Source: Pseudomonas sp. MM223 (GTDB taxonomy: Bacteria > Pseudomonadota > Gammaproteobacteria > Pseudomonadales > Pseudomonadaceae). Taken from it: DNA of 64,000 bases. The position numbers and the translations under genes were made by a program. The notes under the pieces were generated by a model. It did not search any database and had not been told where the DNA came from. It saw only the letters and a program-made list of their open reading frames with translations. The stretch lies in contig OX352322.1 of assembly GCA_947090765.1 (NCBI GenBank), positions 6,441,001-6,505,000 on the forward strand, written 5' to 3'. Shown one piece after another: positions 282 through 59,716 of this stretch (position 1 is the first letter of the stretch; each line of letters begins with the position of its first letter).

Positions 282-1150
282 TCAGAAGTGCGAACCAGCC
301 ACTTCCTGCGCCACACCCAGGAATGCCGCCGGCAACCGGGCCTGGCGCCGTTCCTTCAGGCAATACAGGTACTCATGCATCACCGGCGCGTTATCCAGCG
401 CCAACACCCGCAGCTCTGGGTTGTGCGGTACCTCATGGCGGGCAATCACGCTGATGCCGATGTTGCGCAGCACCGCCTCGCGGATCGACTCGCGGCTGCC
501 GATTTCCAGCAAGGCCCCGGCCTTGACCCCGGCATCCTGCATCATCTGCTCGGTCAGCTTGCGCGTGGTCGAGCCCTTTTCGCGCATCAACAGGCAATGC
601 CCGGCCACCACGTCAATGGACACTGTCTGACGATGGGCCAGCGGGTGGTTGCGATGCACCGCCACCACCAGCGGATCGGTGCCCAACACCCGCCGCACCA
701 GCCGGGCGTCCTCCAGCAGTTGCGACGAGGCGGCGATATCCACCCGGTAGTCTTCGAGCATTTCCAGCACCTGCTGGGAGTTGCCGATCTCCACCGCCAC
801 ATCCACCTGCGGCAAGCGTTCGCGGTATATCTTCACCAGGTCGAGAATGTAGTAAGGCGCCGTCGCGGCGATGCGCAAGCTGCCTTGGGCCTGGCCACTG
901 TTGCGCAGCTCGAACTCGATGTCGGCCTCCTGCTGCAACAGCGCCTTGACCATCGGCAGCAGGCGCACGCCCTCTTCGCTCAGCACCAGGCGCCGCCCGC
1001 CGCGGTAGAACAGCTCCACCGCGTACTGGCTTTCCAGGTTGCGGATCTGCGTGGTCACCGTAGGCTGGCTGAGCCCGAGCTTCTTCGCCGCCAGGGTGAT
1101 GCTGCCCAGGCGGGCCACCATGTAAAAGGCTTTCGAGCCGAACTCAGCAT
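282..1150 (-). CDS. LysR-type regulator, probably linked to aminoethylphosphonate use; start probably frameshifted
   Basis: The body is a complete LysR regulator: an N-terminal winged helix-turn-helix (KAFYMVARLG, then LSQPTVTTQIRNLE), followed by a periplasmic-binding-protein-like effector domain running to the C terminus. Sequence and position beside a probable phosphonate-transport ATPase fit the aminoethylphosphonate-associated LysR group. The start is a problem. The open frame extends to a TTG at 1202 through repeat-like DNA. The only sensible ATG (1150, followed by CTGAGTTCG) is one base out of frame with the helix-turn-helix. Restoring one A near 1138 (GGC to GAGC) gives a 289-residue protein beginning MLSSSSKAFYM, a normal length for this group. 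The family call is firm; the substrate link and the frameshift are inference. Confidence 0.75.
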
Positions 1151-1154
1151 CGCT

Positions 1155-1273
1155 GCGCGCTGCAGTTGAAAGCTTGAAGCCGCAAGCCACAAGAAAAAAC
1201 AAATCCGTGCAGTTTCCTATCTATCACTGTCACCTCGATCAGCTTGCCGCTTGTAGCTAGAGACTTGCAGCTG
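1155..1273. repeat. AAGCTTGAAGC / CTTGCAGC-type intergenic repeat fragments
   Basis: Positions 1155-1196 (GCTGCAGTTGAAAGCTTGAAGC and following CGCAAGCCACAAG) and 1238-1273 (GATCAGCTTGCCGCTTG, then ACTTGCAGCTG) resemble the CTTGAAGCTTGCAGC-type repeats scattered between Pseudomonas genes. They lie between the LysR start and the end of cadA. I saw no gene here. The assignment rests on remembered pattern only. Confidence 0.45.
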
Positions 1274-3527
1274 TCATTTGCGCAAAAGGCGCAAGCCGTT
1301 GAACACCACCAGCAAGCTCACGCCCATGTCGGCGAACACCGCCATCCACAGGGTGGCCATGCCGGCAAAGGTAATCGCCAGGAATATCGCCTTGACGCCC
1401 AGGGCCAGAACGATGTTCTGCATGAGGATCGCCGCACTTTGGCGCGACAGCCTGACGAAGGCCGGGATTTTCCGCAAGTCGTCGTCCATCAGCGCCACAT
1501 CGGCGGTTTCGATGGCAGTGTCGGTGCCGGCAGCAGCCATGGCAAACCCGATCTCGGCGCGGGCCAGGGCCGGGGCATCATTGATGCCGTCACCCACCAT
1601 GCCTACCCGATGGCCCTGTGCGTACAAGGCCTCGATGGTTTTCAGCTTGTCGGCAGGCAACAGGTTGCCCTCGGCGCGGTCGATACCCACTACGGCAGCG
1701 ATGGCCTGCGCGGTATGCGGATTGTCACCGGTCAGCATGACAGTCTTGATGCCCAGCTCATGCAGTTCGGCGATGGCTTGGCGGCTGCTGTCCTTGACCG
1801 TATCGGCCACAGCGAACAAGGCCAATGGGCCACTGCGGTCGAGCAACAGAACCACGGTCTTGCCCTGGCGCTCCAGGGTATCCAGCTGGGCTTCCAGCTC
1901 GGGCGAGCACAGCCCCAGGCTCCTCCACCAGGCGATGGTTGCCCAAGTGATAGACCTCACCGGCGATGGTGCCACGTACGCCGCGCCCGGCCAGGGCGGC
2001 AAAGTCATCGACCTCGCTGAAAGCCAGGCCTTGCTCCTTGCCGAACTGGGCAATGGCGCGGGAAACCGGGTGGTCCGAGCGCTCGCCCAGGCTGGCAGCC
2101 AGGGCTTGCGCACGGCCTTCGAACCTCTGCTCCAGTACCTTCGCGTCAGTCTGTACCGGCTTGCCGTGGGTGATGGTGCCGGTCTTGTCCAGGGCCAGGT
2201 AGTCCAGGTGGCGGCCGCCCTCCAGGTACACACCGCCCTTGATCAGGATGCCTTTGCGCGCCGCAGCGGCCAGGCCGCTGACGATGGTCACCGGGGTCGA
2301 GATCACCAGGGCGCACGGGCACGCGACCACCAGCAGCACCAGGGCGCGGTAGACCCAGTCGAACCAGCCTGCGGCCATGAACAGCGGCGGGATCACCGCC
2401 ACGGCCAAGGCGATGGCAAACACCGCCGGGGTGTAGATACGCGAAAACTGGTCGACGAAGCGCTGGGTAGGCGCCCGCGCGCCTTGTGCTTCCTCCACGG
2501 CCTTGATGATCCGCGCCAAAGTCGATTGCCCGGCACCGGCGGTAACGCGAAATTCCAGCGCCCCCGCCTGGTTGATGGTACCGGCGAACAGCTTGTCGCC
2601 TACGGCCTTCTCCACAGGCAGGCTTTCGCCGGTGATGGGCGCCTGATCGACGCTGGATTGCCCACTGGTCACTTCACCGTCCAGGCCGATGCGTTCGCCG
2701 GGGCGCACCCGCACCAAGGCGCCGATGGCCACTTCGCGCACCTCTGCTTCGCGCCATTGGCCATCTGCCTGCTGCACGGTGGCCATGTCCGGGGTCAGCT
2801 GCATCAACCCGCTGATGGCATTGCGCGCGCGGTCCAGCGAGCGGGCTTCGATCAGTTCGGCAACGGTAAACAGCACCATCACCATGGCCGCTTCCGGCCA
2901 CTGGCCGATCAGCACGGCGCCGGTCACGGCGATGCTCATCAGCGCGTTGATGTTGAGGTTGCGGTTTTTAAGGGCAATCCAGCCTTTCTTGTAGGTGCCC
3001 AGGCCACAGCCAAGAATGGCTGCCAGTGCCAAGGCCGCCACCACCCATTCCGGGGCCAGCTCGGCAAAGTGCACGATTTCGGCAGCAAGGGCGGCAACAC
3101 CCGACAATGCCAACGGCCACCAGCGGGTCTTGGCCGGTTGTGGCGCGGCAGCGTTACTGTCGCCTTCGGCACCAAGCGGCTCGGCCTTCATGCCCAGGCT
3201 GTCGATGGCCCGCTCGATGTCGCCAGTGCCGTCCAGGGTATGGCGCACGCCGAGCACGCGGTTGATCAGGTTGAATTCCAGCTGCTCGATACCGGCCAAC
3301 TTGCCCAGCTTGTCCTGGATCAGGGTCTGCTCGGTGGGGCAGTCCATGGCCTCGATGCGAAAACGGCTGAACTGTGCCTGGGCACTGGCCGTTTCGCTCA
3401 GTTGCACCAGGGATGGCGCGGCTTTGGAGCCGCAGCAGCTGTGACCGTGAGCGGCATGGCCATGGTCGTCATCGCCATGGGCGTGATCGTGCGGGTGCTT
3501 GTGGTCGTGGCCGACAGGCTGGTTCAT
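1274..3527 (-). pseudogene. cadA: Cd2+/Zn2+-exporting P1B-type ATPase, single-base frameshift
   Basis: CadA pumps Cd2+, Zn2+ or Pb2+ out of the cytoplasm using ATP. Start is the ATG at 3527 with AAGGA upstream. Visible in order: a His-rich N terminus (residues 5-29), a metal-binding HMA domain with DCPTE (62-66), membrane helices, TGES (299-302), the CPC metal site (403-405), DKTGT with the phosphorylated Asp (447-451) and the HP motif of the N domain (486-487). After Glu536 the frame breaks: GAGGAGCCTGGGG where GAGGAGCTGGGG is expected, an extra base at 1918/1919. The rest, with TGDNPHT, GDGINDAPA and the last helices, continues in another frame to 1274. Repair gives exactly 750 residues. 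As written the product stops at about 589 residues without the hinge motif and would be inactive. It is divergent from cadR and shares its operator. Confidence 0.93.
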
Positions 3528-3564
3528 GGGGTCATCCTTAAAGTGAGCCTGTTGCCAAGTGAAC

Positions 3565-3585
3565 ACCCTGTAGCCACTATAGGGT
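3565..3585. promoter_or_regulatory. CadR operator between cadA and cadR
   Basis: Imperfect palindrome ACCCTGTAGCCACTATAGGGT in the 83-base gap between the divergent cadA and cadR starts. It matches the known P. putida CadR box, where MerR-type regulators bind in the over-long spacer of the target promoter. TTGACC on the minus strand (3588-3583) directly before the dyad is a plausible -35 for cadA. Confidence 0.85.
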
Positions 3586-3610
3586 CAAGCCACTTGCTGG
3601 AGATTTCGTG

Positions 3611-4054
3611 ATGAAGATCGGAGAACTGGCCAAAGCCACCGACTGCGCAGTGGAAACCATCCGCTACTACGAGCGTGAAAACCTCTTGCCCGAGCCTGCC
3701 CGCACAGAAGGCAACTACCGGCTGTACACCCAGGCCCACGTGGAACGGCTGACCTTTATCCGCAACTGCCGCACCCTGGACATGACCCTGGAGGAAATCC
3801 GCAGCCTGCTACGCCTGCGCGACAGCCCCGACGACTCGTGCGGCAGCGTGAATGCGCTGATCGACGAGCATATCGAGCATGTGCAGGCGCGGATCGATGG
3901 CTTGGTGGCGTTGCAGGAGCAGCTGGTGGAGCTGCGGCGGCGCTGCAATGCGCAGGGGAGTGAATGCGCGATCTTGCAGCAACTTGAGACGAACGGGGCG
4001 GTATCGGTGCCGGATACCGAGCATTCGCATGTGGGGCGAAGCCACGGGCATTGA
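3611..4054 (+). CDS. cadR: MerR-family cadmium-responsive regulator CadR
   Basis: 147-residue MerR-family metal sensor that activates cadA when Cd2+ (or Zn2+/Pb2+) binds. The N-terminal helix-turn-helix spans about residues 1-70 (MKIGELAKATDCAVETIRYY), followed by a dimerisation helix. The metal-binding cysteines Cys77, Cys112 and Cys119 are present, as is the His-rich tail HSHVGRSHGH typical of P. putida CadR. A GTG lies one codon upstream at 3608, but the ATG at 3611 gives the family's usual start. It is divergent from cadA with the CadR operator between them. Confidence 0.96.
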   Translation: MKIGELAKATDCAVETIRYYERENLLPEPARTEGNYRLYTQAHVERLTFIRNCRTLDMTLEEIRSLLRLRDSPDDSCGSVNALIDEHIEHVQARIDGLVALQEQLVELRRRCNAQGSECAILQQLETNGAVSVPDTEHSHVGRSHGH

Positions 4055-4058
4055 TTCA

Positions 4059-4165
4059 AGGGCCTAATCGCCGGCAAGCCAGCTCCCACAAGTTTTGCAT
4101 AGCCCCTACAGGCAGCGCCATCCTGTGGGAGCTGGCTTGCCGGCGAAAGGGCTGCAAAGCAGCCC
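4059..4165. repeat. REP pair, CCGGCAAGCC family
   Basis: Inverted arms with the cores CGCCGGCAAGCCAGCTCC and GGAGCTGGCTTGCCGGCG, followed by a small GGGCTGCAAAGCAGCCCC hairpin. It lies between the convergent cadR and thyA 3' ends. Confidence 0.85.
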
Positions 4166-4180
4166 CGACAGTCTAAAGGG

Positions 4181-5152
4181 TTACACCGCCATCGGCGCTG
4201 TCATCGGCGCATGGTGCTCATACCCTTCCAGCCAGAAATCACTCGGTTCGATCTTCTCCAGCCACTCCGGCTCGTACTTGCCCGTTTCGGCAAACGAAGG
4301 CACACGATCACTGATCACCAGCTTCGGCGCCTCCAGCGGCTCGCGCTTGAGCTGCTCGTTCAGCATGTCCAGGTGATTTTCATACACATGGGCATCGCCG
4401 ATGAAGTAGGTGAACCAGCGCGGGGTATAACCGGTCAGGCGGCCGAACAACGACAGCAGCGCCGCGCCTTCGGTGAGGTTGAACGGTGTGCCCAGGCCCA
4501 GGTCGTTGGAACGGATGTAAAGCGTCAGGGAAATTTCCTTGGTCTCTACATTCGGGTGGAACTGGTACAGCAGGTGGCACGGCGGCAGGGCCATTTCGTC
4601 CAGTTGCGCGCAGTTCCAGCCGTGGAACAGGATGCGGCGGCTGCCCGGGTCGTTGGCGATGGTGTCCAGGCACTGGCGCACCTGGTCGATGGCCTTGTAC
4701 AGCACCACGAACGCCTGGCCGTCTTCTTCGTCCTGGGCAATACGGCGGAAACCGGCCTTCTCGGCCATTTCGATGGCAGCCGGGTTGCTCAGCGGAATGC
4801 GCTTGTAGCCCGGCCACTGGCGCCATTGCACGCCGTAGATCTCGCCCAGGTCGTCATGGCCTTGGCGGAACGGGTTGGCCAGCCACTGGGCGTTTTCGTT
4901 GGCGTTCTGGTCCCAGACCTTGCAGCCCAGTTCGCGGAATTCACCAGCGTTCTTCACGCCACGCAGGAAACCGACCATTTCGCCGATCGCCGACTTGAAC
5001 GCCAGCTTGCGCGTGGTAATGGCCGGGAAGCCCTTCTGCAGGTCGAAACGCAGCATGGCGCCCGGCAGGCTGATGGTGCGGATGCCGGTGCGGTTTCCCT
5101 GCAGCGTGCCGTTGTCGATGACGTCGCGGACCAGGTCCAGATACTGTTTCAT
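4181..5152 (-). CDS. thyA: thymidylate synthase
   Basis: Converts dUMP to dTMP with methylenetetrahydrofolate as methyl donor, the only de novo route to dTMP by ThyA. The catalytic cysteine is Cys192 in [10 protein letters not shown]. Other family signatures are RNRTG-like phosphate binding near residues 19-24 (QGNRTGIRT) and the folate/dUMP-binding stretch [11 protein letters not shown]. At 323 residues it is longer than the 264-residue E. coli enzyme because of an insert after about residue 90, which is normal in Pseudomonas. It lies downstream of lgt in the same direction, but a terminator-like hairpin stands between them. AGGTAAGCC precedes the ATG. Confidence 0.97.
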
Positions 5153-5166
5153 GGCTTACCTGTAGC

Positions 5167-5195
5167 AAAAACGGCAGGGGGATCGCCCCTGCCGT
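5167..5195 (-). terminator. Rho-independent terminator between lgt and thyA
   Basis: Ten-base-pair GC-rich stem (ACGGCAGGGG / CCCCTGCCGT) with a five-base loop, followed on the minus strand by five T. It ends just ahead of the thyA ribosome-binding site, so it may attenuate read-through from lgt. Confidence 0.75.
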
Positions 5196-5203
5196 GGGAT
5201 TAA

Positions 5204-6010
5204 TCAGGCGGGTTTCGCCGTGGGCTTGCGATTATAAGCCCACCAGATCAGGCCAAGGCCAGCCAGGATCATCGGTACGCACAGAATCTGACCCATGGTC
5301 AGCCAGCCCCAGGCGATGTAACCCAGTTGGGCATCCGGCACCCGCACGAATTCGACGATGAAGCGGAAGATGCCGTAGAACAGCGCGAACATGCCCGATA
5401 CCGCCATGGTTGGCCGCGGCTTGCGCGAGAACAGCCACAGGATCAGGAACAGTGCCACGCCCTCCAGGGCGAATTGGTACAGCTGCGACGGGTGGCGCGG
5501 CAACTGGGCCGGGTCGCTGAACGGCGGGAAAATCATCGCCCATGGCACGTCGGTGGGCTTACCCCACAGCTCCGCGTTGATGAAGTTGCCGATACGCCCG
5601 GCACCCAGACCGATCGGCACCAGCGGGGCGACGAAGTCCATCAGCTCGAAGAACGACTTGTTGTTGCGCTTGCCGAACCACAAGGCCGCCAGCATCACGC
5701 CGATGAAACCGCCGTGGAACGACATGCCGCCCTTCCACACCTCGAAGATCAGCGTCGGGTTGGCCAGGTAGGCATGCAGGTCGTAGAACAGCACGTAACC
5801 CAGGCGGCCACCGACGATCACCCCCATCGACAGCCAGAACACCAGGTCGGAAAGCTTCTCACGCGACCAGGTAGGGTCGAAGCGGTTCAGCCGGCGCGAG
5901 GCCAGCAGCCAGGCGCCGCCGATGCCAATCAGGTACATCAGGCCGTACCAATGGATTTTCAGCGGCCCGATGGCCAGGGCCACGGGGTCTATCTGCGGGT
6001 AAGGCAGCAT
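5204..6010 (-). CDS. lgt: prolipoprotein diacylglyceryl transferase
   Basis: Inner-membrane enzyme that transfers diacylglycerol from phosphatidylglycerol to the lipobox cysteine of prolipoproteins, the first step of lipoprotein maturation. The 268-residue length and about seven membrane helices fit Lgt. The signature [13 protein letters not shown], which includes the essential Arg and Asn, is present, as is the N-terminal [10 protein letters not shown] segment. It lies 16 bases after the TSUP permease gene in the same direction, so the two are probably co-transcribed. Confidence 0.97.
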
Positions 6011-6026
6011 GGAACTTCCTCTCGAT

Positions 6027-6809
6027 TCAAATCAAAAAGCTGAGGCCGACACAGAACAGCAGCGCTGCGAACAGGCGTTTCAACAAACGGGGCGACAGCT
6101 TGTGCGCCAGGCGCGCGCCAAAGCGGGCAAAAAACATGCTGGTCACGGCAATGCCGACCATCGCCGGCAGGTACACATAACCCAGGCTATGGGCCGGCAG
6201 GTGCTCTTCGTGCCAGCCCAGCAGCATGAAGCTCAGGGCACTGGCCACGGCAATCGGCAGGCCGCATGCCGAGGACGTGGCCACCGCCTGCTGCATGGGC
6301 AGGCTGCGCCAGGTCAGGAACGGCACGGTCAGCGAACCACCGCCGATACCGAAAATGGCCGAGGCCCAGCCAATCACCCCACCGGCCCCGATCAATGCGG
6401 GTTTGCCGGGGATGCCATGGCTGGCCTTGGGCTTGAGGTCCAGGGCCATCTGCGCGGCAATGACCAGGGCAAACACACCGATGATCTTTTGCAGCAGCGG
6501 GCCCTGGATCAGCGAGGCGGTCTTGGCGCCAACCCCGGCGCCCAGGAGAATACCAAGGGTCATCCAGGCAAAAATCGGCCATTGCACTGCGCCCTTGCGG
6601 TGGTGCTCAAGCACGGCGTTGATCGAAGTGAACACGATGGTTGCCAGTGACGTGCCAACTGCCAGGTGGGTCAGCACCGAAGCGTCAAAGCCCTGCAAGG
6701 TGAAGCTGAACACCAGCACCGGCACGATGATGATGCCACCGCCCACGCCGAACAGCCCTGCCAGCACACCGGCACAGGCGCCCAACAGCAGATAGAGCAC
6801 GAATTCCAT
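6027..6809 (-). CDS. TauE/SafE-family (TSUP) membrane permease
   Basis: 260-residue polytopic protein of the TSUP family, whose members export or import sulfite, sulfonates or other small anions. The N-terminal helix [16 protein letters not shown] and the repeated glycine-rich turn [14 protein letters not shown] are the two half-repeat signatures of the family. The frame extends upstream to 6830, but the ATG at 6809 ([10 protein letters not shown]) has a GGGGAAG ribosome-binding site. It probably heads a unit with lgt. The substrate cannot be told from sequence. Confidence 0.85.
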
Positions 6810-6938
6810 TCGGCTTCCCCGAGAAAACAATCCGGCATGGTAACGGAAGCCGGGCTCGGGGCTCTAGTGAACTCTGTGTCAGGATGGATCCGCCCCGCTG
6901 CTGTGGGTACAGTGGCAGAAAACACAGAGGCCCAACCG

Positions 6939-7685
6939 ATGTGCCTGATCGTATTTGCCTGGCGGCCCGGGCATGCCCTGCCGCTGATCGTCGCGGCTAA
7001 CCGTGACGAGTTCTATGCCCGCCCCACTCAACCTCTGGCAGCCTGGGAGGATGCACCTGGGGTGTACGCCGGGCGCGACCTGGAGGCCGGTGGCACCTGG
7101 CTGGGCGTAGGCCCGCAGGGGCGCTTTGCCGCGCTGACCAACATCCGCGACCCTGGCCAGGCGCTGGGGCCACGTTCGCGGGGCGAGCTGGTAGCGGCCT
7201 ACCTGCAGGGCGAGCTGGGGGTGGAGGCTTACCTGGACCAAGTGGCCAGCCGCAGTGGGCAGTATTCGGGGTTCAACCTGCTGGTGGGTGACGGGCGGCA
7301 ACTGGGGTACCTGCATGCCCGTGACGCCACGCCGTGCCTGCTGGACGCCGGGGTATACGGGTTATCCAACGCTGGGCTGGATACGCCGTGGCCGAAGCTG
7401 GTGAAGGCACGTAGCGGCTTGGAGAGGTTGCTGGACACACCGGAGCCGCGTCGGTTGCTGGATTTGCTGGCGGATAACGAGCCGGCGGCTGATGGTGATC
7501 TACCCGAGACAGGCGTTGGGGTGGCGACTGAGAAGTTGCTGTCGAGCGTGTTCATCGCCAGCCAAAATTACGGGACGCGGGCGAGTACGGCGCTGATTGT
7601 AGATGATCGGGGACGAAGGCAGCTTATTGAGCGCAGTTTCGGGCCCTTTGGTGGGCATTTGGGGGAAATTGAGCTTAAGGTCTGA
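6939..7685 (+). CDS. NRDE-family (TANGO2-like, DUF833) protein
   Basis: 248-residue protein starting MCLIVFAWRPG. It has the NRDE motif (AANRDEFYARP) near residues 20-30 that names the family, an N-terminal cysteine in the position used by Ntn-hydrolase-like folds, and the conserved GGTWLGV and LTNIRDP segments. Function in bacteria is unknown; eukaryotic TANGO2 is linked to haem and lipid handling. The open frame starts much earlier (6666), but that part is antisense to the TSUP gene; the ATG at 6939 is the family start. Confidence 0.88.
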   Translation: MCLIVFAWRPGHALPLIVAANRDEFYARPTQPLAAWEDAPGVYAGRDLEAGGTWLGVGPQGRFAALTNIRDPGQALGPRSRGELVAAYLQGELGVEAYLDQVASRSGQYSGFNLLVGDGRQLGYLHARDATPCLLDAGVYGLSNAGLDTPWPKLVKARSGLERLLDTPEPRRLLDLLADNEPAADGDLPETGVGVATEKLLSSVFIASQNYGTRASTALIVDDRGRRQLIERSFGPFGGHLGEIELKV

Positions 7686-7689
7686 GGGC

Positions 7690-7791
7690 CATGGGGCTGC
7701 CCTGCCGCCCTTTCGCGGCACAAGGCCGCTCCTACACGCGATCTTCTGTAGGAGCGGCCTTGTGCCGCGAACGGGCCGCAAAGCGGCCCCA
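7690..7791. repeat. REP pair, CGGCACAAGGCCG family
   Basis: Inverted arms TTTCGCGGCACAAGGCCG / CGGCCTTGTGCCGCGAA, each ending in CTCCTACA or its complement, with a trailing GGGCCGCAAAGCGGCCCC hairpin. It lies between the convergent NRDE and ptsP genes. Confidence 0.85.
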
Positions 7792-7796
7792 AAATT

Positions 7797-10076: not shown

Positions 10077-10098
10077 GGCTCGGGGTCGAACTCCGTCG

Positions 10099-11376: not shown

Positions 11377-11382
11377 GATTGC

Positions 11383-11485: not shown

Positions 11486-11493
11486 CCCTGGCC

Positions 11494-18732: not shown

Positions 18733-19961
18733 ATGAGCAAGACTTCTCTCGACAAGAGCAAGATCCGGTTCCTTCTTCTTGAAGGTGTGCACCAGAACGC
18801 AGTCGATACCCTCAAGGCTGCCGGCTACACCAACATCGAATACCTCACTGGTTCGTTGCCGGAAGCCGAGCTGAAGGAAAAGATCGCCGATGCCCACTTT
18901 ATCGGCATCCGTTCGCGCACCCGCTCACCGAAGAGATCTTCGACTGCGCCAAGAAACTGGTTGCTGTTGGCTGCTTCTGCATCGGCACCAACCAGGTTGA
19001 CCTGGAAGCTGCCCGCCAGCGCGGTATCGCCGTATTCAACGCGCCATACTCCAACACCCGTTCGGTAGCCGAGCTGGTGCTGGCCGAGGCCATCCTGCTG
19101 CTGCGCGGCATCCCTGAGAAGAACGCCTCCTGCCACCGTGGCGGCTGGATCAAGAGCGCGGCCAACTCGTTCGAAATCCGTGGCAAGAAGCTGGGCATCG
19201 TCGGTTACGGCTCGATCGGTACCCAGCTGTCGGTACTGGCCGAGAACCTCGGCATGCAGGTGTACTTCTACGACCCGCTGACCAAGCTGCCACTGGGCAA
19301 CGCCGTGCAGGTCACCAGCCTGAACGAGCTGCTGGGCCTGGCCGACATCGTCTCGCTGCACGTGCCTGAGCTGCCATCCACCCAGTGGATGATCGGCGAG
19401 AAGGAAATCCGTGCAATGAAGAAGGGCGCGATCCTGATCAACGCCGCCCGTGGCACCGTGGTCGAGCTGGACCATCTGGCCGCCGCCATCAAGGACAAGC
19501 ACCTGATCGGCGCCGCCATCGACGTATTCCCGGTTGAGCCGCGCTCGAACGACGAAGAGTTCGAAAGCCCGCTGCGCGGCCTGGACAACGTGATCCTGAC
19601 CCCGCATATCGGTGGTTCCACCGCCGAAGCCCAGGCCAACATCGGCCTGGAAGTGGCCGAGAAGCTGGTCAAGTACAGCGACAACGGTACCTCGGTGTCC
19701 TCGGTCAACTTCCCGGAAGTGGCCCTGCCGGCCCACCCAGGCAAGCACCGCCTGCTGCACATCCACGAAAACATCCCGGGCGTGCTCAGCGAGATCAACA
19801 AAGTCTTCGCCGAGAACGGCATCAACATCTCCGGTCAGTTCCTGCAGACCAACGAGAAGGTCGGTTACGTGGTGATCGACGTCGACGCCGAATACTCGGA
19901 CCTGGCACAAGAAAAACTGCAACAGGTCAAGGGCACCATCCGTTCCCGCGTCCTGTTCTAA
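18733..19961 (+). pseudogene. serA: D-3-phosphoglycerate dehydrogenase, single-base frameshift
   Basis: SerA oxidises 3-phosphoglycerate with NAD+, the committed step of serine synthesis. From MSKTSLDKSKIRF the frame reads correctly to Thr63 (GIRSRT), then breaks: ACCCGCTCACC stands where ACCCAGCTCACC is expected, one A missing between 18922 and 18923. The rest runs on in the next frame: CIGTNQVDLEAA, the NAD-binding GIVGYGSIGTQ, the catalytic His in LTPHIGGSTAEAQ, and the C-terminal ACT domain (HENIPGVLSEINKVF) that binds serine. Repair gives 409 residues, the normal length. As written the gene is dead and the cell would need serine, so a sequence error is likely. It is divergent from the D-2-hydroxyglutarate dehydrogenase. 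Confidence 0.93.
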
Positions 19962-43068: not shown

Positions 43069-43205
43069 GGTGGATCTCCTATATCTGGTCAAGGAGCTGC
43101 CACCTTCATCTTTCTCACGGATCAGGGCGGCAACCGTACGCGAGGTGAAAATCCGCGGATATAGGAACGCAGCCAGACGTAAGCCTGCCCGCGCACGGCT
43201 GCCAT

Positions 43206-44146
43206 GACTGAAGCATTGGGTTTGTTTGATGAATTTTCGTACGCTTTGAGGGCCTCTTCGCGGGTGAACCCACCTGGTCGGCTAATGCGGTCAACTGTAG
43301 GAGCGGCCTTGTGCCGCGAAAGGGCCGCGAAGCGGCCCCAGTGATTCAGCGCAGATGCACAAATTGCCGGGGCTGCTTCGCAGCCCTTTCGCGGCACAAG
43401 GCCGCTCCTACAAGGCCCTGTGCAGACTTCAAGAAATGCACAGCGGGCTTGCCCGCGGAGATCAGGCGGACGCCGCCTTCTTTGATTCCCCTACAACAGA
43501 GCAGCTTCCACACGGCTCGTAGGATAATTCCCAAGCTGCCCTGACTGAAGCATTGGGTTTGATTTGATGAATTTTCGTACGCTTTGAGGGCCTCTTCGCG
43601 CGTGAGCCCACCTGGTCGGCTAATGCGGTCAACTGTAGGAGCGGCCTTGTGCCGCGAAAGGGCCGCGAAGCGGCCCCAGTGATTCAGCGCAGATGCACAA
43701 ATTGCCGGGGCTGCTTCGCAGCCCTTTCGCGGCACAAGGCCGCTCCTACAAGGCCCTGTGCAGACTTCAAGAAATGCACAGCGGGCTTGCCCGCGGAGAT
43801 CAGGCGGACGCCGCCTTCTTCGATTCCCCTACAACAGAGCAGCTTCCACACGGCTCGTAGGATAATTCCCAAGCTACCCTGACTGAAGCATTGGGTTTGT
43901 TTGATGAATTTTCGTACGCTTTGAGGGCCTCTTCGCGGGTGAACCCACCTGGTCGGCTAATGCGTCAACTGTAGGAGCGGCCTTGTGCCGCGAAAGGGCC
44001 GCGAAGCGGCCCCAGTGATTCAGCGCAGATGCACAAATTGCCGGGGCTGCTTCGCAGCCCTTTCGCGGCACAAGGCCGCTCCTACAAGGCCCTGTGCAGA
44101 CTTCAAGAAATGCACAGCGGGCTTGCCCGCGCAGATCAGGCGGACG
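43206..44146. repeat. three tandem copies of a 338-bp unit, each with a REP pair
   Basis: Copies begin with GACTGAAGCATTGGGTTTG at 43206, 43543 and 43881 (periods 337 and 338). Each holds a degenerate half-REP (GAGGGCCTCTTCGCG), a full CGGCACAAGGCCG-family REP pair around a GTGATTCAGCGCAGATGCAC centre, and CAGACTTCAAGAAATGCACAG. Copies 1 and 2 end in a CCCTACAACAGAGCAGC to GGATAATTCCCAAGCT block; copy 3 instead runs into the 3' end of the spuH gene. Copies differ at only a few bases. No convincing gene lies within; the ORFs there are REP translations. Confidence 0.92.
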
Positions 44147-49642: not shown

Positions 49643-49676
49643 CGACTTAATGTCACATCGCTAGCCTAGCAGGTGA

Positions 49677-51038: not shown

Positions 51039-51086
51039 GTGCTTCTCCGTTGTTCGACAGCCGCGCTCCAGCGGCACCAGGGTTAA

Positions 51087-52445: not shown

Positions 52446-53019
52446 AAATACCTCAGGAGGTAAGGTGGGCCGCGCATTGATTCTGGATGGAGTAGATTGC
52501 TAAAGCAAAAACCCCCGCGCAGCGCCGCAGTGGATACACTGAAAACAGGTGTGTCCGTAATGAGTTCGAAGGGCAGGAAGACGAAGCGAAGGGCGGCAAG
52601 CCGCTACGAGGGCGGGCCCGGGAACGCCAAACGTCAATTATTGCGGCCAGGGCGACCACGCCATTGACGAAGCTTGCAAAAACGACAGAGGTACCCGTTG
52701 GCACTGCGCAGGCAGTGCTTTCAGGTCGCGGCAAGCGGACCATGTGACCCTCGTATTATTGTGTTCTGGGTTGTGACCGAGCTTAGCCTTGTTCATTTTT
52801 TTACACAACACCCGCGTAAAAAATAAAAGACGGTACGCTTGAGATAGCCCTTCACAGGTGAAATAGCGGATAATGGCATGCCCCGATATGCAGCAAATCT
52901 GCCGTAGATGTGCCATTTCAGGGCATCATTGGGTTGGCTTGACATCAGTATGGCTTTTCGATTGACTGGTCCTGCAAGCCCCCCTTGATTGATATTTTTA
53001 ACAACAAAGGTGTTGCATC
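52446..53019. promoter_or_regulatory. 574-base divergent control region between spuB and spuI
   Basis: No convincing gene. It contains a perfect hairpin GCACTGC-GCAG-GCAGTGC at 52701-52718 followed by TTTC, an AT-rich stretch around 52780-52830 that probably holds the divergent promoters, and TTGACA near 52939 on the spuI side. In P. aeruginosa spuA lies in this position, but no glutamine-amidotransferase-like frame is present here. Confidence 0.55.
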
Positions 53020-54396
53020 ATGTCGGTACCCCCGCGTGCCGTTCAGCTTAACGAAGCGAACGCGTTCCTTAAGGAACATCCTGAGGTTCTCTACGTTGAC
53101 CTTCTGATTGCAGATATGAATGGTGTGGTGCGTGGCAAGCGCATTGAGCGCACCAGCCTCCACAAGGTTTACGAGAAAGGCATCAACCTGCCGGCCTCCC
53201 TCTTCGCCCTGGACATCAACGGTTCCACCGTCGAAAGCACTGGGCTTGGCCTGGACATCGGCGATGCTGACCGCATCTGCTACCCGATCCCCGACACGCT
53301 CTGTAACGAGCCGTGGCAAAAGCGCCCCACTGCCCAACTGCTGATGACCATGCACGAGATCGAAGGCGAGCCGTTCTTCGCCGACCCTCGTGAAGTGCTG
53401 CGCCAGGTGGTGAGCAAGTTCGACGAGCTGGGCCTTACCATTTGCGCTGCATTCGAGCTGGAGTTCTACCTGATCGACCAGGAGAACGTGAACGGCCGCC
53501 CACAGCCGCCGCGCTCGCCAATCTCGGGCAAACGCCCGCAGTCGACCCAGGTGTACCTGATCGACGACCTCGACGAATATGCCGACTGCCTGCAGGACAT
53601 CCTCGAAGGCGCGAAAGAACAAGGCATTCCGGCCGACGCCATCGTCAAGGAAAGCGCCCCGGCGCAGTTCGAAGTCAACCTGCACCACGTGGCCGACCCG
53701 CTCAAGGCCTGCGACTACGCGGTGCTGCTCAAGCGGTTGATCAAGAACATCGCCTACGACCATGAAATGGACACCACCTTCATGGCCAAGCCCTACCCGG
53801 GCCAGGCAGGTAACGGCCTGCATGTACACATTTCCGTGCTGGACAAAGATGGCAACAACATCTTCACCAGCGAGGATCCCGAGCAGAACGCCGCGCTACG
53901 TCACGCTGTCGGCGGTGTGCTCGAGACCCTGCCCGCGTCCATGGCGTTCCTTTGCCCGAACGTCAACTCGTACCGCCGCTTTGGCGCGCAGTTCTATGTA
54001 CCGAACGCGCCAAGCTGGGGCCTGGACAACCGCACCGTGGCCCTGCGCGTGCCGACCGGCTCGGCAGACGCTGTGCGCATCGAGCACCGCGTGGCCGGTG
54101 CCGACGCCAACCCGTACCTGATGATGGCTGCTGTGCTGGCCGGCGTGCACCATGGCCTGACCAACAAGATCGAACCGGGCAAGCCGATCGAAGGCAACTC
54201 GTACGAACAGCTGGAGCAGAGCCTGCCGAACAACCTGCGCGATGCCCTGCGCGAGCTGGACGACAGCGAGATCCTCAACAAGTACATCGATCCGAAGTAC
54301 ATCGACATCTTCGTCGCGTGCAAGGAAAGCGAGCTGGAGGAGTTCGAGCACTCGATCTCCGACCTCGAGTACAACTGGTACCTGCACACCGTGTAA
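53020..54396 (+). CDS. spuI: gamma-glutamylpolyamine synthetase, GS family (SpuI)
   Basis: 458-residue glutamine-synthetase-like ligase. AFELEFYLIDQ, FEVNLHHVADPLKACDYAV and GNGLHVHISVLD hold the metal- and ATP-binding residues, and NPYLMMAAVLAGVHHG the C-terminal pattern. It is the second GS-like gene of the cluster and clearly a paralogue of spuB. Divergent transcription from spuB matches spuI in P. aeruginosa, where such enzymes glutamylate putrescine, cadaverine or other amines. A strong terminator follows. Confidence 0.93.
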   Translation: MSVPPRAVQLNEANAFLKEHPEVLYVDLLIADMNGVVRGKRIERTSLHKVYEKGINLPASLFALDINGSTVESTGLGLDIGDADRICYPIPDTLCNEPWQKRPTAQLLMTMHEIEGEPFFADPREVLRQVVSKFDELGLTICAAFELEFYLIDQENVNGRPQPPRSPISGKRPQSTQVYLIDDLDEYADCLQDILEGAKEQGIPADAIVKESAPAQFEVNLHHVADPLKACDYAVLLKRLIKNIAYDHEMDTTFMAKPYPGQAGNGLHVHISVLDKDGNNIFTSEDPEQNAALRHAVGGVLETLPASMAFLCPNVNSYRRFGAQFYVPNAPSWGLDNRTVALRVPTGSADAVRIEHRVAGADANPYLMMAAVLAGVHHGLTNKIEPGKPIEGNSYEQLEQSLPNNLRDALRELDDSEILNKYIDPKYIDIFVACKESELEEFEHSISDLEYNWYLHTV

Positions 54397-54401
54397 ACGA
54401 A

Positions 54402-54428
54402 AACGCCGCCCACTAGGGCGGCGTTTTT
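54402..54428 (+). terminator. Rho-independent terminator after spuI
   Basis: Stem AACGCCGCC / GGCGGCGTT with a six-base loop, followed by five T, starting six bases after the spuI stop. Confidence 0.93.
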
Positions 54429-54455
54429 CATTTACGTCCAGGCAACTCGCTCCCT

Positions 54456-54578
54456 TGTAGGAGCGGCCTTGCGCCGCGAAAGGGGTGCGAAAGCGCCCCC
54501 AGGGGTTGTGCAGCTTGCAGACATTGCCGGGGCCGCTTTGCGGCCCTTTCGCGGCACAAGGCCGCTCCTACGAAGGCC
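54456..54578. repeat. REP pair, CGGCACAAGGCCG family
   Basis: Arms TGTAGGAGCGGCCTTGCGCC and GGCACAAGGCCGCTCCTAC, opposite in order to most pairs, with small hairpins GGGGTGCGAAAGCGCCCC and GGGGCCGCTTTGCGGCCC inside. The left arm has GCGCC where others have GTGCC. It lies between the convergent spuI and argA genes. Confidence 0.83.
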
Positions 54579-54596
54579 TCACTGCAGGCAGATACC

Positions 54597-55896
54597 TTAC
54601 AGGGGCTTCTCGAAAATCTTCGAATTGCGCTGGTAGTTGTACAGCGAAGCCCGCGCCGATGGCAGCCGTTCCACGCCGCTAGGCGCAAAACCGCGTTCGC
54701 GGAACCAGTGCGCCGTACGCGTCGTCAGCACGAACAGGGTATTCAACCCCATCTGCCGCGCCCGGCTCTCGATGCGCTCCAGCAATTCATCCCCGCGCCC
54801 GCCGTGGCGGTATTCCGGGTTCACCGCCAGGCACGCCAGGCTCACCTGCTTCGGAGTCGGCAATCGGGTACAACGCCGCACAGGCGATGATCATGCCCTC
54901 GCGCTCCACCACGCTGAACTGCTCGATCTCCCGCTCCAGCACCTCGCGCGAGCGGCGCACCAGAATGCCCTGCTCTTCCAGCGGGCTGATCAGCTCCAGC
55001 AAGCCGCCTACGTCCTCGATGGTCGCCTCGCGCACCACTTCGAACTGCTCCTGCGACACCAGCGTACCGCCACCGCCACGGGTGAACAGCTCGGTCAGCA
55101 GCGCGCCGTCCTCGGCATAACTGACAATGTGGCTGCGTGCCACGCCACCCTTGCAGGCCTCGGCGGCGGCGTCCAACAGCTCGCCCTGGTAGTCGCTGCC
55201 CAGGCGCTGCAGGTGCGGGGCAACCTGCTGCGGGCGCAGTTCCCGCACCAGCTTGCCGTCCGCGTCCAGCAGGCCCGGCTCGGCGCCGAACAACAGCAAC
55301 TTGTCGGCCCCCAGCTCGATGGCGGCACGGGTGGCCACGTCTTCGCAGGCCAGGTTGAAGATTTCGCCGGTGGGCGAGTAGCCCAGCGGCGACAGCAGCA
55401 CGATGGAGCGCTCGTCGAGCAGGCGGCTGATGCCCTTGCGGTCGACCCGGCGCACTTCGCCGGTGTGGTGGTAGTCCACCCCTTCGAGCACACCGATCGG
55501 CCGCGCGGTGACCAGGTTGCCGGACGCCACACGCAGGCGCGAGCCCTGCATCGGCGAAGCCGCGATGTCCATCGACAGGCGCGCCTCGATGGCCAGGCGC
55601 AAGGCGCCAACGGCGTCGATCACGCAGTCCAGGGTGGCGGCATCGGTGATGCGCAAGCCATGGTGGTAGTGCGGGGTCAGGCCGCGATCGGCCAGGCGGC
55701 TTTCAATCTGCGGGCGCGAGCCATGCACCAGCACCAGGCGCACGCCAAGGCTGTGCAGCAACACCAGGTCGTGGACGATGTTGCCGAAATTAGGGTGTTC
55801 CACCCCATCGCCAGGGAGCATGACCACGAAGGTGCAGTCGCGATGGGCATTGATGTACGGGGAGGCATGACGCAGCCAGTTGACGTAGTCGGGCAT
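54597..55896 (-). pseudogene. argA: N-acetylglutamate synthase, single-base frameshift
   Basis: ArgA acetylates glutamate in the first step of arginine synthesis. It has an amino-acid-kinase-like domain (about residues 10-280; VHGSRPQIESRLADRG) that binds arginine for feedback control, and a C-terminal GNAT domain. The frame breaks after Glu352: GGTGAGCCTGGCG where GGTGAGCTGGCG is expected, an extra base at 54839/54840. Acetyl-CoA-binding residues (CLAVNPEYRHGGRGDELL) are in the second frame, ending EKPL at 54597. Repair gives 432 residues, the normal length. As written the GNAT domain is lost. It lies 124 bases downstream of argE. Confidence 0.92.
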
Positions 55897-56020
55897 GACA
55901 GGGCCTGTGGATAAGTGGACGGAGAACGGCGATACAAGGGGCGTTCAAGATCATCGTCGGAACAGGCTTGCGGTCACGCGCGGTCTCCTCTAGGCAGGAA
56001 CGAATCAACTCGATTGACGT

Positions 56021-57163
56021 TTAATGCAGGCAATAGTGCCGGATCAGGTCACGCAATAGACGCACGGTAGGCTCGATTCGTGACATTTCCAGGTATTCGC
56101 CGGGCTGGTGGGCACAGGCGATGTCGCCGGGGCCCAGCACGATGGTCTGGCAGCCCAGTTGCTGAAGATAAGGCGCTTCGGTGCCGAACGCCACCGCTTC
56201 GGCGCGGTGGCCGGTCAGGCGTTCCGCCACTTGCACCAGCTCGGCATCGGCAGCCTGCTCGAACGGCGGCACCTCCGGGAACAGGGGTGCGTAGTCGATG
56301 CGCACATCATGGCGCTCGGCCACGGGCACCAGCTTCTCGCGAATGGCTGCACGCAGCTGCTCTACATCCATGCCCGGCAACGGCCGCAGGTCGAATTCAA
56401 GCGCACACTGGCCGCAGATGCGGTTGGGGTTGTCGCCGCCGTGGATGCAGCCAAAGTTCAGGGTCGGGGTCGGCACGGTGAACTGCGGGTTGCGATAGGT
56501 TTGCTGCCATTGCTGGCGCAGGCCCATCAGCTCGCCCATTACCGCATGCATGGCCTCCAGCGCACTGCGGCCCAGGCTTGGGTCCGACGAGTGGCCGCTG
56601 CGCCCGAGGATGTCGATGCGGTCCATGAGGATGCCCTTGTGCATGCGGATCGGCCGCAGCCCGGTAGGCTCGCCGATGACCGCCGCACGGCCCAGCGGTT
56701 GGCCGGCCTCGGCCAAGGCGCGGGCACCGGACATGGAGCTTTCTTCGTCGCAGGTGGCGAGGATCAGCAGCGGCTGCTTGAAGTCATGCTCCAACAGCGG
56801 GATGACGGCTTCGATGACCAAGGCGAAAAAGCCCTTCATGTCGCAGCTGCCCAGGCCGACCCAGCGGCCATCGACTTCGGTCAGCTTCAGAGGGTCACTG
56901 GCCCACAGTTGTTCGTCATACGGCACGGTGTCGCTGTGCCCGGCCAGCACCAGGCCACCCGGGCCGCTGCCACGGCTGGCCAGCAGGTTGAACTTGCCCG
57001 GGCTGACCTGCTGGATGTCGCATGTAAACCCCAAGTCGCCCAGCCAGCCGGCCAGCAGGTCGATGACCTGGCGGTTGGACTGGTCCAGCGCGGGCTGGGT
57101 GCAACTGACCGAAGGCGCGGCGATCAAGGCGGCAAACTGGTCTTTCAGCGTCGGCAACGGCAT
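56021..57163 (-). CDS. argE: acetylornithine deacetylase
   Basis: 380-residue M20-family zinc hydrolase that turns N-acetylornithine into ornithine. VLAGHSDTVPYD (metal His and Asp), GLGSCDMKGFFAL, ATCDEESSMSGA (catalytic Glu pair) and EFDLRPLPG are the family motifs. The second ATG at 57163 (MPLPTLKDQFAAL) is the start, because GAGGAG lies seven bases before it and would be too close to the first ATG. It is upstream of argA in the same direction. Confidence 0.94.
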   Translation of the reverse strand: MPLPTLKDQFAALIAAPSVSCTQPALDQSNRQVIDLLAGWLGDLGFTCDIQQVSPGKFNLLASRGSGPGGLVLAGHSDTVPYDEQLWASDPLKLTEVDGRWVGLGSCDMKGFFALVIEAVIPLLEHDFKQPLLILATCDEESSMSGARALAEAGQPLGRAAVIGEPTGLRPIRMHKGILMDRIDILGRSGHSSDPSLGRSALEAMHAVMGELMGLRQQWQQTYRNPQFTVPTPTLNFGCIHGGDNPNRICGQCALEFDLRPLPGMDVEQLRAAIREKLVPVAERHDVRIDYAPLFPEVPPFEQAADAELVQVAERLTGHRAEAVAFGTEAPYLQQLGCQTIVLGPGDIACAHQPGEYLEMSRIEPTVRLLRDLIRHYCLH

Positions 57164-57278
57164 GCGCATACTCCTCGGAAGCGTTGCCCATCATAGGACT
57201 ATCCGCCGTCTGGAATAAACCGTTGGCGGCGGACTGCTGTAGACTCTCCGCCAACCACGCCCCTCTTTCGAGTCTGTG

Positions 57279-58645
57279 ATGCACAAAGAAACCGAACTGA
57301 AGCTCCGCGCCAGCCGCGAGACCCTTGCCGCCCTGCGCGAGCACCCTCTGCTGAAAAAGCGCAACAAGTCCGGCTGGCAGACCCGTGAACTGCTCAACCA
57401 GTACTTCGACACCCCCGAGCGTGAGCTGTCCGCCGCCCGTGTCGCCCTGCGCCTGCGCCGCGATGGCGATGCCGTCATCCAGACCCTCAAGTGCCGCGGC
57501 ACCAGCGTGGCCGGCCTGTCCGAGCGCAACGAGTACGAATGGAACCTGGACAAGGTCAAGCTCGACCTGAAAAAGCTGGACGCCACCTGCTGGCCCGAGC
57601 AACTGGCCAACCTGGACAAAAAAACCATCAAGCCGTTGTTTACCACCGACTTCAGCCGTGAATACGCCGAAATCGCCTGGGGCCGTGGCAAAAGCAAGGT
57701 GGTGATCGAGGCCGCGCTGGACCAGGGCTTCGTGATTGCCGGCAAACGCAAGGAAGAGATCTGCGAGCTGGGCTGGAGCTGCGCGAAGGTGACCCGCAAG
57801 CACTGCTGGAACTGGCCGCCGAGCTGGCCGCCAGCCTGCCGCTGATGCCCTGCGACATCAGCAAGGCCGAGCGTGGCTACCGCCTGCTGGAGCCGGACAG
57901 CTACGAGCTGGGGCTGCCGCACACCGAGCTGGAAGCTGAAATGGCCCTGGACGACGCCTACGCCGCATTAGCCTGGCAACTGCTGGGCAGCAGCCAGCGC
58001 CTGGCCGAGCAGTACCGCCACAACGGCCACTGGCGCCTGCTGCAAGACTGGGTCGAGTGCCTGAGTGAGCTGCGCGCGCTGACTGCCAGCCTGGGCCAGG
58101 CTGCACCGCGTGCCAGCACCCGTGAGCTGCGCAGCAGCCTCGACGCCCTGCTGGAAGACTGGCGTCCGCTGGTGCAGGCCGGCAACGATGACGAAGACAT
58201 CCGCCGCGCCGCCCCCGAGCAGTTTGCCGAAGAACTGGAAGACGTGCGCTGGGGCCAGTTCTCGCTGGAAACCTCGCGCTGGCTGCTGGCCCGTGCCTGG
58301 ACCGCAGAACGCAAAGGCCGTGGCGAGCGCCAGGGCAAGGCGCAGCTGGCCAGCTGGCTGGCGCACCTGCTGGGCGAAGAAGGCCGTGCGTTGAAGCTGC
58401 CGCTGTACACCCAGCGCCCGGAAGACCTGGCCGAGCAACTGCCACGTATCGAGCAACTGCTGGCTTGGCTGCACCATGCCCGCCAGGTGCTGGAAGCACC
58501 ACAGATGGACCGCCTGTATGGCGACCTGAAAAAGCTGCACGAGCTGGCCGAACTGCCGATCAGCGATGAAGTACTGGAAGCCCGTATCGAACAGGCCCGG
58601 GCAGTGGACCAGAGCCGCGGCTGGAAGCACCTGCTCAAGGCGTGA
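57279..58645 (+). pseudogene. CYTH-CHAD inorganic triphosphatase-like protein, single-base frameshift
   Basis: The N-terminal CYTH domain has the ExExK signature as ETELKL; beta-strand residues LLNQYFDTPERELSAARVAL and ALRLRRDGD line the triphosphate tunnel. The C-terminal part (from about residue 220) is a helical CHAD domain, a polyphosphate-binding module. The frame breaks after Leu164: GAGCTGGGCTGGAGC where GAGCTGGAGCTGGAGC is expected, one A missing between 57771 and 57772. The second half runs to 58645 in the next frame; repair gives 455 residues. The real start is probably ATG 57279 (MHKETELKLRASRE). Such proteins may hydrolyse triphosphate or act in polyphosphate handling. Confidence 0.9.
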
Positions 58646-58671
58646 TGCCTGATCGGGATGGCGCGACCTTT

Positions 58672-58788
58672 GTAGGAGCGGCCTTGCGCCGCGAAAGGGC
58701 CGCAAAGCGGCCCCAGAACTCCGGCATTCCTTACTGTTGCTGGGGCTGCTCTGCAGCCCTTTCGCGGCACAAGGCCGCTCCTACACGG
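58672..58788. repeat. REP pair, CGGCACAAGGCCG family
   Basis: Arms TGTAGGAGCGGCCTTGCGCC and GGCACAAGGCCGCTCCTACA, order opposite to most, with hairpins GGGCCGCAAAGCGGCCCC and GGGGCTGCTCTGCAGCCC inside. Between the convergent CYTH-CHAD and Lrp genes. Same layout and GCGCC variant as the pair at 54456. Confidence 0.83.
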
Positions 58789-58814
58789 TCCGCGCCAGCT
58801 GCTTGAGAGCAGCT

Positions 58815-59285
58815 TTACTTTGAAAGTGGCAGGCTGGTGGTCGATTTGATCTCCGACAGCGCCACAATCGAATTCACTTCCTGAATCCCCGGCACGTTCG
58901 ACAACTTTTCGAAGAAGAAGCGCTCATAAGCCTCGATGTCCGATGTGACGATGCGCAGCAGAAAGTCCACCGCCCCCATCAGCACATAACACTCCAGCAC
59001 CTCCGGAAACCCGCGGATCGCCTCGGTGAACTCGGTAAAGTTGGAGCGCCCGTGCGCATTGAGTTTCACCTCGGCGAAAATCTGCGTGTTCAAGCCAACC
59101 TTCTTGCGGTCCAGCAAAGTCACTTGCCCGCGAATCACGCCCTCTTCCTTCAAGCGCTGTATGCGCCGCCAGCACGGCGATTGCGACAGCCCCACGCGCT
59201 CGGCGATCTGCGCGCTGGACAGCGAAGCGTCCTCTTGCAGCAGTTCGAGAATACGGCGGTCGTAGGCGTCCAGCTCGCTGTGCAT
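58815..59285 (-). CDS. Lrp/AsnC-family transcriptional regulator
   Basis: 156 residues. An N-terminal winged helix-turn-helix (LDAYDRRILELLQEDASL, then SSAQIAERVGLSQSPCWRRI) is followed by a RAM/AsnC ligand domain (AEVKLNAHGRSNFTEF, ECYVLMGAVDFLLRIV). Such proteins sense amino acids and control their metabolism. It is divergent from the small gene at 59412, which it may regulate. Close to the leucine-responsive Lrp of P. putida, though the exact paralogue is uncertain. Confidence 0.9.
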   Translation of the reverse strand: MHSELDAYDRRILELLQEDASLSSAQIAERVGLSQSPCWRRIQRLKEEGVIRGQVTLLDRKKVGLNTQIFAEVKLNAHGRSNFTEFTEAIRGFPEVLECYVLMGAVDFLLRIVTSDIEAYERFFFEKLSNVPGIQEVNSIVALSEIKSTTSLPLSK

Positions 59286-59411
59286 TACTCAATCTCCTTA
59301 AAGCCAATATCTGAATCAATCAATTCGCCAACACGGCGAAATAACCAAATCATAGCGAAAAAATGCCGCCGCCAACGTGCAAGAATTTCTCCCACATTCG
59401 CGGAGACCAGC

Positions 59412-59716
59412 ATGAACGCACAGCCCCGTACCGACGCCTGGGCCGCCAGCAACGCCCACAGCACCGTGCACTATCGCCTGCAGGCCGAAGCCGAACCCGA
59501 TAGCCTGTGCCGCGTGCTCAACCTGTTTGCCCTGCAGTTCCTGACCCCGCACAGCGTGCACGTCAGCCAGCAGGACGACTGGCTGGATATCGAAGTGGGC
59601 ATCGGCGGCCTGAGCGGCACCGGGCCGAGGTGATTGCGCAGAAACTGCGTAACCTGGTGTGTGTGGGTGAAGTGAGCCTGAGCAATGCCCAGCGGGTGGC
59701 GCTGGCGGTTGTATAA
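59412..59716 (+). pseudogene. small ACT-like protein, single-base frameshift
   Basis: The frame MNAQPRTDAWAASNAHSTVH to VGIGGLS then breaks after codon 68: AGCGGCACC where AGCGAGCACC is expected (A missing between 59616 and 59617). The remainder, HRAEVIAQKLRNLVCVGEV to NAQRVALAVV, continues in the next frame to 59716. Repair gives 101 residues. The pattern of beta strand, helix and QKLRNLVCV with a cysteine resembles small ACT-like amino-acid-binding domains. Its position beside a divergent Lrp gene supports an amino-acid link. Function unknown. Confidence 0.75.

Follow-up and report, generated by a model that had tools for sequence, protein, structure and literature searches.

The window analysed here is a stretch of 64,000 nucleotides of the Pseudomonas sp. 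MM223 genome (G000), positions 6441001-6505000 of contig C1 (6,730,273 bases), in which six genes are each interrupted by a frameshift that fits a change at the word GAGCTG, or CAGCTC on the other strand. The G+C content of the window is 62.5%, and the source strain appears to belong to the P. putida group, because a 348-residue protein encoded in the window is 91-93% identical to proteins of Pseudomonas pudica, P. hunanensis, P. inefficax and P. monteilii. Three genomes of the same genus (G003, G007 and G009), with about 80-89% DNA identity to the window in the main alignments of the serA and cadA regions, served for comparison. The interrupted genes are given below in window coordinates, with the extent of the variant word as it stands in the record.

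282-1202, minus strand: LysR-family regulator of the aminoethylphosphonate-associated type (NCBIfam TIGR03339, 387 bits); break near the gene start, at about 1134-1140
1761-3566, minus strand: larger open piece of the cadA heavy-metal P-type ATPase gene (TIGR01525); +1 in GAGCTG, variant word 1916-1922
18733-19961, plus strand: serA phosphoglycerate dehydrogenase (NCBIfam NF008759, 576 bits); -1 in a probable CAGCTC, variant word 18922-18926
54787-55896, minus strand: larger open piece of the argA amino-acid N-acetyltransferase gene (TIGR01890, 597 bits); +1 in GAGCTG, variant word 54837-54843
57276-58645, plus strand: CYTH-domain gene in two frames (Pfam CYTH, PF01928, in the first piece); -1 in a probable GAGCTG, variant word 57771-57775
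59412-59716, plus strand: small gene with no match in the family searches; -1 in a probable GAGCTG, variant word 59612-59616

The start of serA was estimated from a 409-codon relative, and NF008759 was scored on the open piece 18936-19925.

The breaks in cadA, serA, argA and the CYTH gene were analysed by codon-aware, frameshift-tolerant alignment with the intact open reading frames (ORFs) of the three relatives, and those in the LysR gene and the small gene by nucleotide alignment (the small gene was 71% identical to G009 over 189 columns). All six frameshifts, noted in an earlier preliminary description of this DNA, were confirmed as real features of the record, each fitting a change at GAGCTG/CAGCTC. 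The cadA and serA breaks were reproduced against G003, G007 and G009, and the argA and CYTH breaks against G009 only. Intact 750-residue relatives of the CadA ATPase are known, the closest being 96% identical over 89% of the open piece (510 member sequences). The small-gene break, previously placed at 59616/59617, agreed with the variant word within one base. The LysR gene, described as carrying a -1 change at about 1138, was indeed one base shorter than in G009, which has an in-frame GAGCTG at codons 5-6 (G007 has GAGTTG), but its string was also rearranged, so that the change was no clean loss of one base. A near-identical rearranged string, one base shorter than in G003 and G009, was present at C1:297787, as if one complex miscall recurs. 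The conversion of GAGC to GGC, proposed for three of the genes, failed for the LysR gene and the small gene. The CYTH half of the presumed CYTH-CHAD protein was matched in the first piece, but the CHAD half was left unconfirmed, the second piece matching no Pfam or NCBIfam family. GAGCTG was present in a relative at the break itself in three of the six cases, namely cadA (G003), argA and the LysR gene (both G009). At the serA, CYTH and small-gene breaks the relatives carried the near words CAGTTG/CAACTG, GAGCTT and GAGTTG, respectively, and the original GAGCTG/CAGCTC is suggested by the window's own letters.

Frame changes were then sought on a larger scale in 1.404 Mb of C1 (6041001-6725000, 1-320000, 1041001-1241000 and 3041001-3241000), using a hidden Markov model. 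It had states for the six coding frames and for non-coding DNA, charged a cost for every frameshift transition and had learned its parameters from 780 long ORFs. The model called 68 frameshifts, or 48 per Mb. For each event, all 6-mers that could be created by one opposite-sign edit within the position interval were compared with those in matched random coding windows. GAGCTG/CAGCTC ranked first of 1,993 6-mers, fitting 56 of 68 events compared to 13.7 expected (log10 p -27.3, uncorrected); when fixed variant words were counted, the same 56 of 68 contrasted with 22.6% of random windows (2,562/11,312). A separate 400 kb (320001-720000), unused in motif discovery, again gave GAGCTG as the top 6-mer, with 12 of 16 events compared to 4.1 expected (log10 p -4.3). 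In both sets the errors fell on a single short word much more often than expected by chance, the pattern expected of a motif-dependent consensus error. The scan recovered three of the six window breaks, the three missed ones being close to the end of a gene or within a short one; the true number of breaks therefore exceeds the detected number, and extrapolation gave about 300 detectable miscalls genome-wide, perhaps double in truth.

The shared word had been taken to be the tetramer GAGC, which pointed to the right kind of cause but was too short: the enrichment anticipated for GAGC among frameshifts was strong in the 1.804 Mb scanned but followed GAGCTG. There were 13,198 GAGC and 1,700 intact GAGCTG sites in the 1.404 Mb. 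Once GAGCTG-compatible events were set aside, the other 15 GAGCNN words accounted for 0-4 events each compared to 0.5-2.6 expected, and GAGCCG (40 vs 17.8 expected) and GAGCCC (23 vs 10.4) were raised only before this removal. Longer words scored below GAGCTG, with 31 of 68 events for GAGCTGG (5.7 expected) and 24 for GGAGCTG (3.9 expected). Comparison of the flanks of error and intact sites at 16 positions showed raised signals at positions -1 and +7; that at +7 (chi2 15.3) was marginal after allowing for the 16 positions, and that at -1 was biased because the palindromic GAGCTCG class had been left out as ambiguous. The possibility that GAGCTG is generally being lost through substitutions was also considered and rejected, since the GAGCTG to GAACTG change (148/722) was nothing special compared with the opposite direction (107/597). 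Gaps at GAGCTG in blastn alignments (30/722 vs 4/597 in reverse) were too noisy for use alone. The density of GAGCTG was 1,211 per Mb in the source genome compared to 1,538-1,938 per Mb in the three relatives, a shortfall that exceeds what the frameshifts explain and to which codon use or site avoidance may contribute.

The form of the errors was read from the 43 of 56 GAGCTG-compatible events that allowed a single reading (13 allowed more than one). Insertions gave GAGCCTG (14 events), GAGCTCG (6), GAAGCTG (3), GAGGCTG (3) and GAGCATG (1), and deletions gave GGCTG (13) and GAGCG (3), the changed base being inside the AGCT core or directly bordering it. The orientation of the motif on the reference was evenly divided (17 vs 18 in 35 unambiguous cases), and the motif lay on the gene strand in 26 of these 35 compared to 82% of 1,494 intact coding sites. 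The errors, which fell in unrelated genes, were thus independent of gene and of reference strand. Runs of six or more bases occurred in only 4 of 68 intervals, so homopolymers do not explain the errors. Two frameshifts, at C1:57537 and 3108619, had no GAGCTG reading and contained G runs, and are possibly ordinary homopolymer errors. About 3% of GAGCTG sites were detected as miscalled; the proportion in the window was 6 of 114, with 108 copies intact.

Applied to 658 kb from the relatives (G009, 398 kb; G003, 160 kb; G007, 100 kb), the model made no frameshift call. The two-domain methyltransferase introduced below was also not found in these genomes, whose sequencing technology and methylation may differ. 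Being trained on the source genome, the model may be less sensitive elsewhere; it nevertheless recognised 85-90% of the DNA of the relatives as coding. A second list of breaks was built from homology, in which the model served only to choose the relatives' genes and sites were retained if at least 7 of 15 residues were identical on both sides. It held 68 candidate sites (equal to the number from the scan by coincidence), 34 of which passed the filter. Among these, 24 were compatible with GAGCTG, one more had CAGCTC in a relative, and 18 were also model calls; in 16 cases, one or more relatives carried GAGCTG or CAGCTC in the 21-base stretch, the copy at the CYTH gene being a neighbouring one.

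Taken together, the sampled parts of the genome contain motif-specific frameshifts of both signs and in both motif orientations that are absent from the sampled relatives. We consider it very probable that the six breaks are motif-dependent consensus errors, made at modified GAGCTG during assembly of native long reads, and that the genes are intact in the cell. Misreading of a modified word in native long reads is suggested because the indels are word-specific, ignore gene and strand, and mostly occur without homopolymers. Under this explanation GAGCTG, and CAGCTC on the other strand, would probably be methylated in this strain; the signal of native long reads, most likely nanopore reads, over the modified AGCT core would be misread; and a base would be added to the consensus or dropped from it at a few per cent of sites. 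As the responsible enzyme we propose, as most likely, a 1,304-residue protein that would provide one methyltransferase half for each strand of the non-palindromic word. We infer the long-read origin, the base modification and the enzyme assignment. A motif-dependent base-calling error, its link to the motif graded as suggestive only, had been proposed in the preliminary description, and is now clearly favoured by the scan of 1.804 Mb of the 6.73 Mb together with the control from the relatives.

Several observations weigh against this explanation or its details. The evidence comes from the assembled sequence, and the source genome and its relatives may differ in sequencing technology. Twelve of 68 events in the 1.404 Mb and 4 of 16 in the 400 kb did not fit GAGCTG; some of the non-fitting events resembled gene starts or G runs, and two of the 12, near 255838 and 6594400, had CAGCTC in a relative. 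Nine of the 34 homology sites likewise had no GAGCTG fit, all lying in roughly the first 45 codons of the ORF predicted in the relative, and are tentatively read here as over-extended start predictions; the 24 of 34 is a raw count, to which chance compatibility may contribute. One single-base edit cannot explain the LysR break. Most GAGCTG sites are intact, and therefore modification alone does not decide a miscall. In the parts of PMC11610573 and PMC12345217 drawn on here, methylation-linked errors are mainly base swaps, whereas those described above are indels. Finally, the 1,304-residue enzyme is not unique to this strain, with 2,924 database relatives scored at E 1e-50, many of them in other bacteria, and at least four other methyltransferase genes of this genome may be the responsible ones.

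To identify candidate enzymes, the genome was searched with five Pfam families (PF00145, PF01555, PF02384, PF07669 and PF20473), by which five DNA-methyltransferase genes were found, so that at least five are present. Three of them encode C5 methyltransferases, near 3.58, 4.28 and 4.43 Mb. PF02384 gave no match genome-wide; yet the Eco57I-type protein matches part of this family. The candidates discussed by coordinates are the following.

C1:5937892-5941806: two-domain N6/N4 methyltransferase of 1,304 residues, with a helix-turn-helix and two catalytic halves (PF01555, 142 bits, in two stretches)
C1:350893-354792: Eco57I/TaqI_C-type methyltransferase of 1,299 residues, with SNF2/PLD helicase and AAA ATPase genes
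C1:4277404-4278573: C5 methyltransferase

The catalytic halves of the two-domain enzyme resemble each other (41% over 502 residues), and its translation contains twice each the motif-I-like DPF[SC]GSG and the motif-IV-like DPPF, as expected of catalytic domains. The PADLOC model PDLC03312 (type II methyltransferase) matched it nearly over the full length (residues 4-1293, 2,864 bits), and the model entry states no recognition word. The gene lies in a 20-kb stretch of 56% G+C, compared to 62.5% in the window, and its convergent neighbours encode a 526-residue DUF2357-PDDEXK_7 protein followed by a 627-residue MTaX1 protein, the former being the putative adjoining nuclease of a type II restriction-modification system. 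As a whole, C1:5937892-5945249, with the methyltransferase, DUF2357-PDDEXK_7 and MTaX1 genes, resembles a locus for restriction-modification or defence, so far uncharacterised. The enzyme was found in one of 398 Pseudomonas genomes (E 1e-100) and in one of 398 genomes of a phylum sample (E 1e-200), the source genome both times, so that these two sets held no second carrier in which the link between enzyme and word could be replicated. Plasmid records gave five matches (E 1e-100), all below 60% identity and presumably actinobacterial by genus placement. Its database relatives include a Pseudomonas aeruginosa protein with 80% identity and another with 99% identity over 821 residues. We narrowly favour this protein as the enzyme that marks GAGCTG, because two catalytic halves would suit a non-palindromic word that needs marks on both strands.

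The best-surviving alternative is a variant compatible with the main claim, in which the artefact is the same but GAGCTG is marked by another enzyme: the Eco57I/TaqI_C-type methyltransferase, the C5 methyltransferase at C1:4277404-4278573, one of the two other C5 genes, or a member of a family outside those searched. All four named genes are present and open, and the Eco57I/TaqI_C-type protein scores best against type IIG models; non-palindromic recognition words are common among enzymes of this type. Those of C5 enzymes are mostly palindromic, and GAGCTG did better than GAGCTC in the 6-mer test; an enzyme with a single domain would need a second enzyme for the other strand. We regard a different enzyme as possible, if somewhat less probable than the two-domain protein.

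A weak spot of the base-caller or consensus procedure at GAGCTG would produce the errors with no modified base needed. That only a few per cent of sites are affected, and that the case is read from the assembly, would agree with this explanation; the relatives, which are richer in GAGCTG by the densities given above, yielded no frameshift in 658 kb, a comparison in which their technology may differ. Such a weak spot appears unlikely.

Real inactivation of the six genes by mutation, or GAGCTG as a hotspot of mutation, for example because the restriction enzyme of the strain cuts there and the repair is error-prone, would at least be consistent with the PDDEXK_7-family nuclease gene adjoining the two-domain methyltransferase. 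The identity of the genes hit elsewhere speaks strongly against it. For 20 of the 56 GAGCTG-compatible breaks, the open piece on one side was searched against protein families with a cut-off of E 1e-30, and 14 of the 20 pieces were matched (6 were not). The matched genes were polA, pntB, argH, gshA, parE, metX, recG, and those for succinate-semialdehyde dehydrogenase, a putA-type dehydrogenase, a class II polyhydroxyalkanoate synthase, a MocR-like regulator and three TonB siderophore receptors; the pieces of parE, polA, recG and pntB scored under the full-length cut-off. parE is essential, and the broken set, together with serA and argA, would deprive the strain of functional topoisomerase IV and of several amino acids. 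Since parE, polA, gshA, argH, metX, recG, serA and argA are all hit, real inactivation is not credible. The detected rate of about 47 frameshifts per Mb (84 in 1.804 Mb) would further imply about 300 broken genes, parE and several genes of amino-acid biosynthesis included, and we judge real mutation, with or without a hotspot, to be highly improbable. Frameshifting that is programmed at GAGCTG, or some other peculiarity of decoding there, suggested by one word common to the breaks of several genes, has a practically negligible chance of being correct, as both +1 and -1 changes occur in unrelated genes, the relatives are in frame without it, and intact GAGCTG is still common.

Consensus errors at modified GAGCTG thus remain the preferred explanation, and the class of artefact to which they would belong is already known; the motif, the indel form and the candidate enzyme are details without an account in the literature searched, which yielded no paper that names this word. 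The part of PMC11610573 drawn on here describes methylation-linked nanopore errors in Kit 14 read data as ambiguous R/Y positions with a minimal shared RA/TY pattern, evaluates PCR-based sequencing and masking as remedies, and notes that core-genome multilocus sequence typing is disturbed. In both cases the errors fall at short, partly strain-specific words, are mirrored on both strands and are ascribed to DNA modification. In contrast to the R/Y ambiguity in reads described there, the present errors add or remove a single base at a complete 6-mer and are seen in an assembly only. PMC12345217 reports two nanopore-only Pseudomonas aeruginosa assemblies with residual errors at 46/70,459 and 25/83,098 GGCC sites, mostly G-to-A and with no explanatory methylation motif found. 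The errors are similarly tied to one motif and to a small fraction of its sites; here, however, the word is GAGCTG, the changes are indels, and the detected share of affected sites is about 3%. According to PMC11649196, indels and single-nucleotide variants inflate gene counts, and native and PCR reads were combined. Kastor (PMC12007338) is a general tool for gene-fragmenting errors in long-read assemblies, which, similarly to the present analysis, detects false frameshifts, there against a curated set.

By extrapolation, about 300 or more false pseudogenes, essential and biosynthetic genes included, would mislead pangenome, auxotrophy and gene-loss studies that use this record. The error word of an assembly is recoverable from a comparison of its frame changes with chance expectation, with no reads required, and nuisance errors thereby turn into a testable prediction of the recognition word of a methyltransferase. 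The more far-reaching proposal, which we hold evenly balanced between true and false, is that the false frameshifts are an unintended footprint of the methylome, legible from the FASTA sequence by itself: the strain would modify GAGCTG on both strands, and the word would be assigned to the tandem two-domain methyltransferase linked to the uncharacterised DUF2357-PDDEXK_7/MTaX1 pair. If this is true, public long-read assemblies could be mined in this way to find the recognition words of other orphan methyltransferases, with no need for raw signal.

Some further features were observed around the other candidate methyltransferase genes and in the window. The block at C1:349220-358111, with the AAA ATPase, Eco57I/TaqI_C-type methyltransferase and SNF2/PLD helicase genes at 51-53% G+C, looks like another defence system. 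At C1:4273554-4278573 the C5 methyltransferase gene stands with genes for a NOV_C-domain protein and a ResIII-type helicase close to pheT (PheRS beta domains), in what looks like a defence island. In the window, a C4 antisense RNA (43123-43209, minus strand; RF01695, 59 bits), which we take to be an RNA of the phage-immunity type, hints at a prophage remnant, and the Pseudomonas small RNA P1 was found at 52747-52926 on the plus strand (RF00623, 159 bits). A repeat of about 95 bases at about 165-270, with many matches in G009 in both orientations and several in G007, is likely a repetitive extragenic palindromic (REP)-like element.

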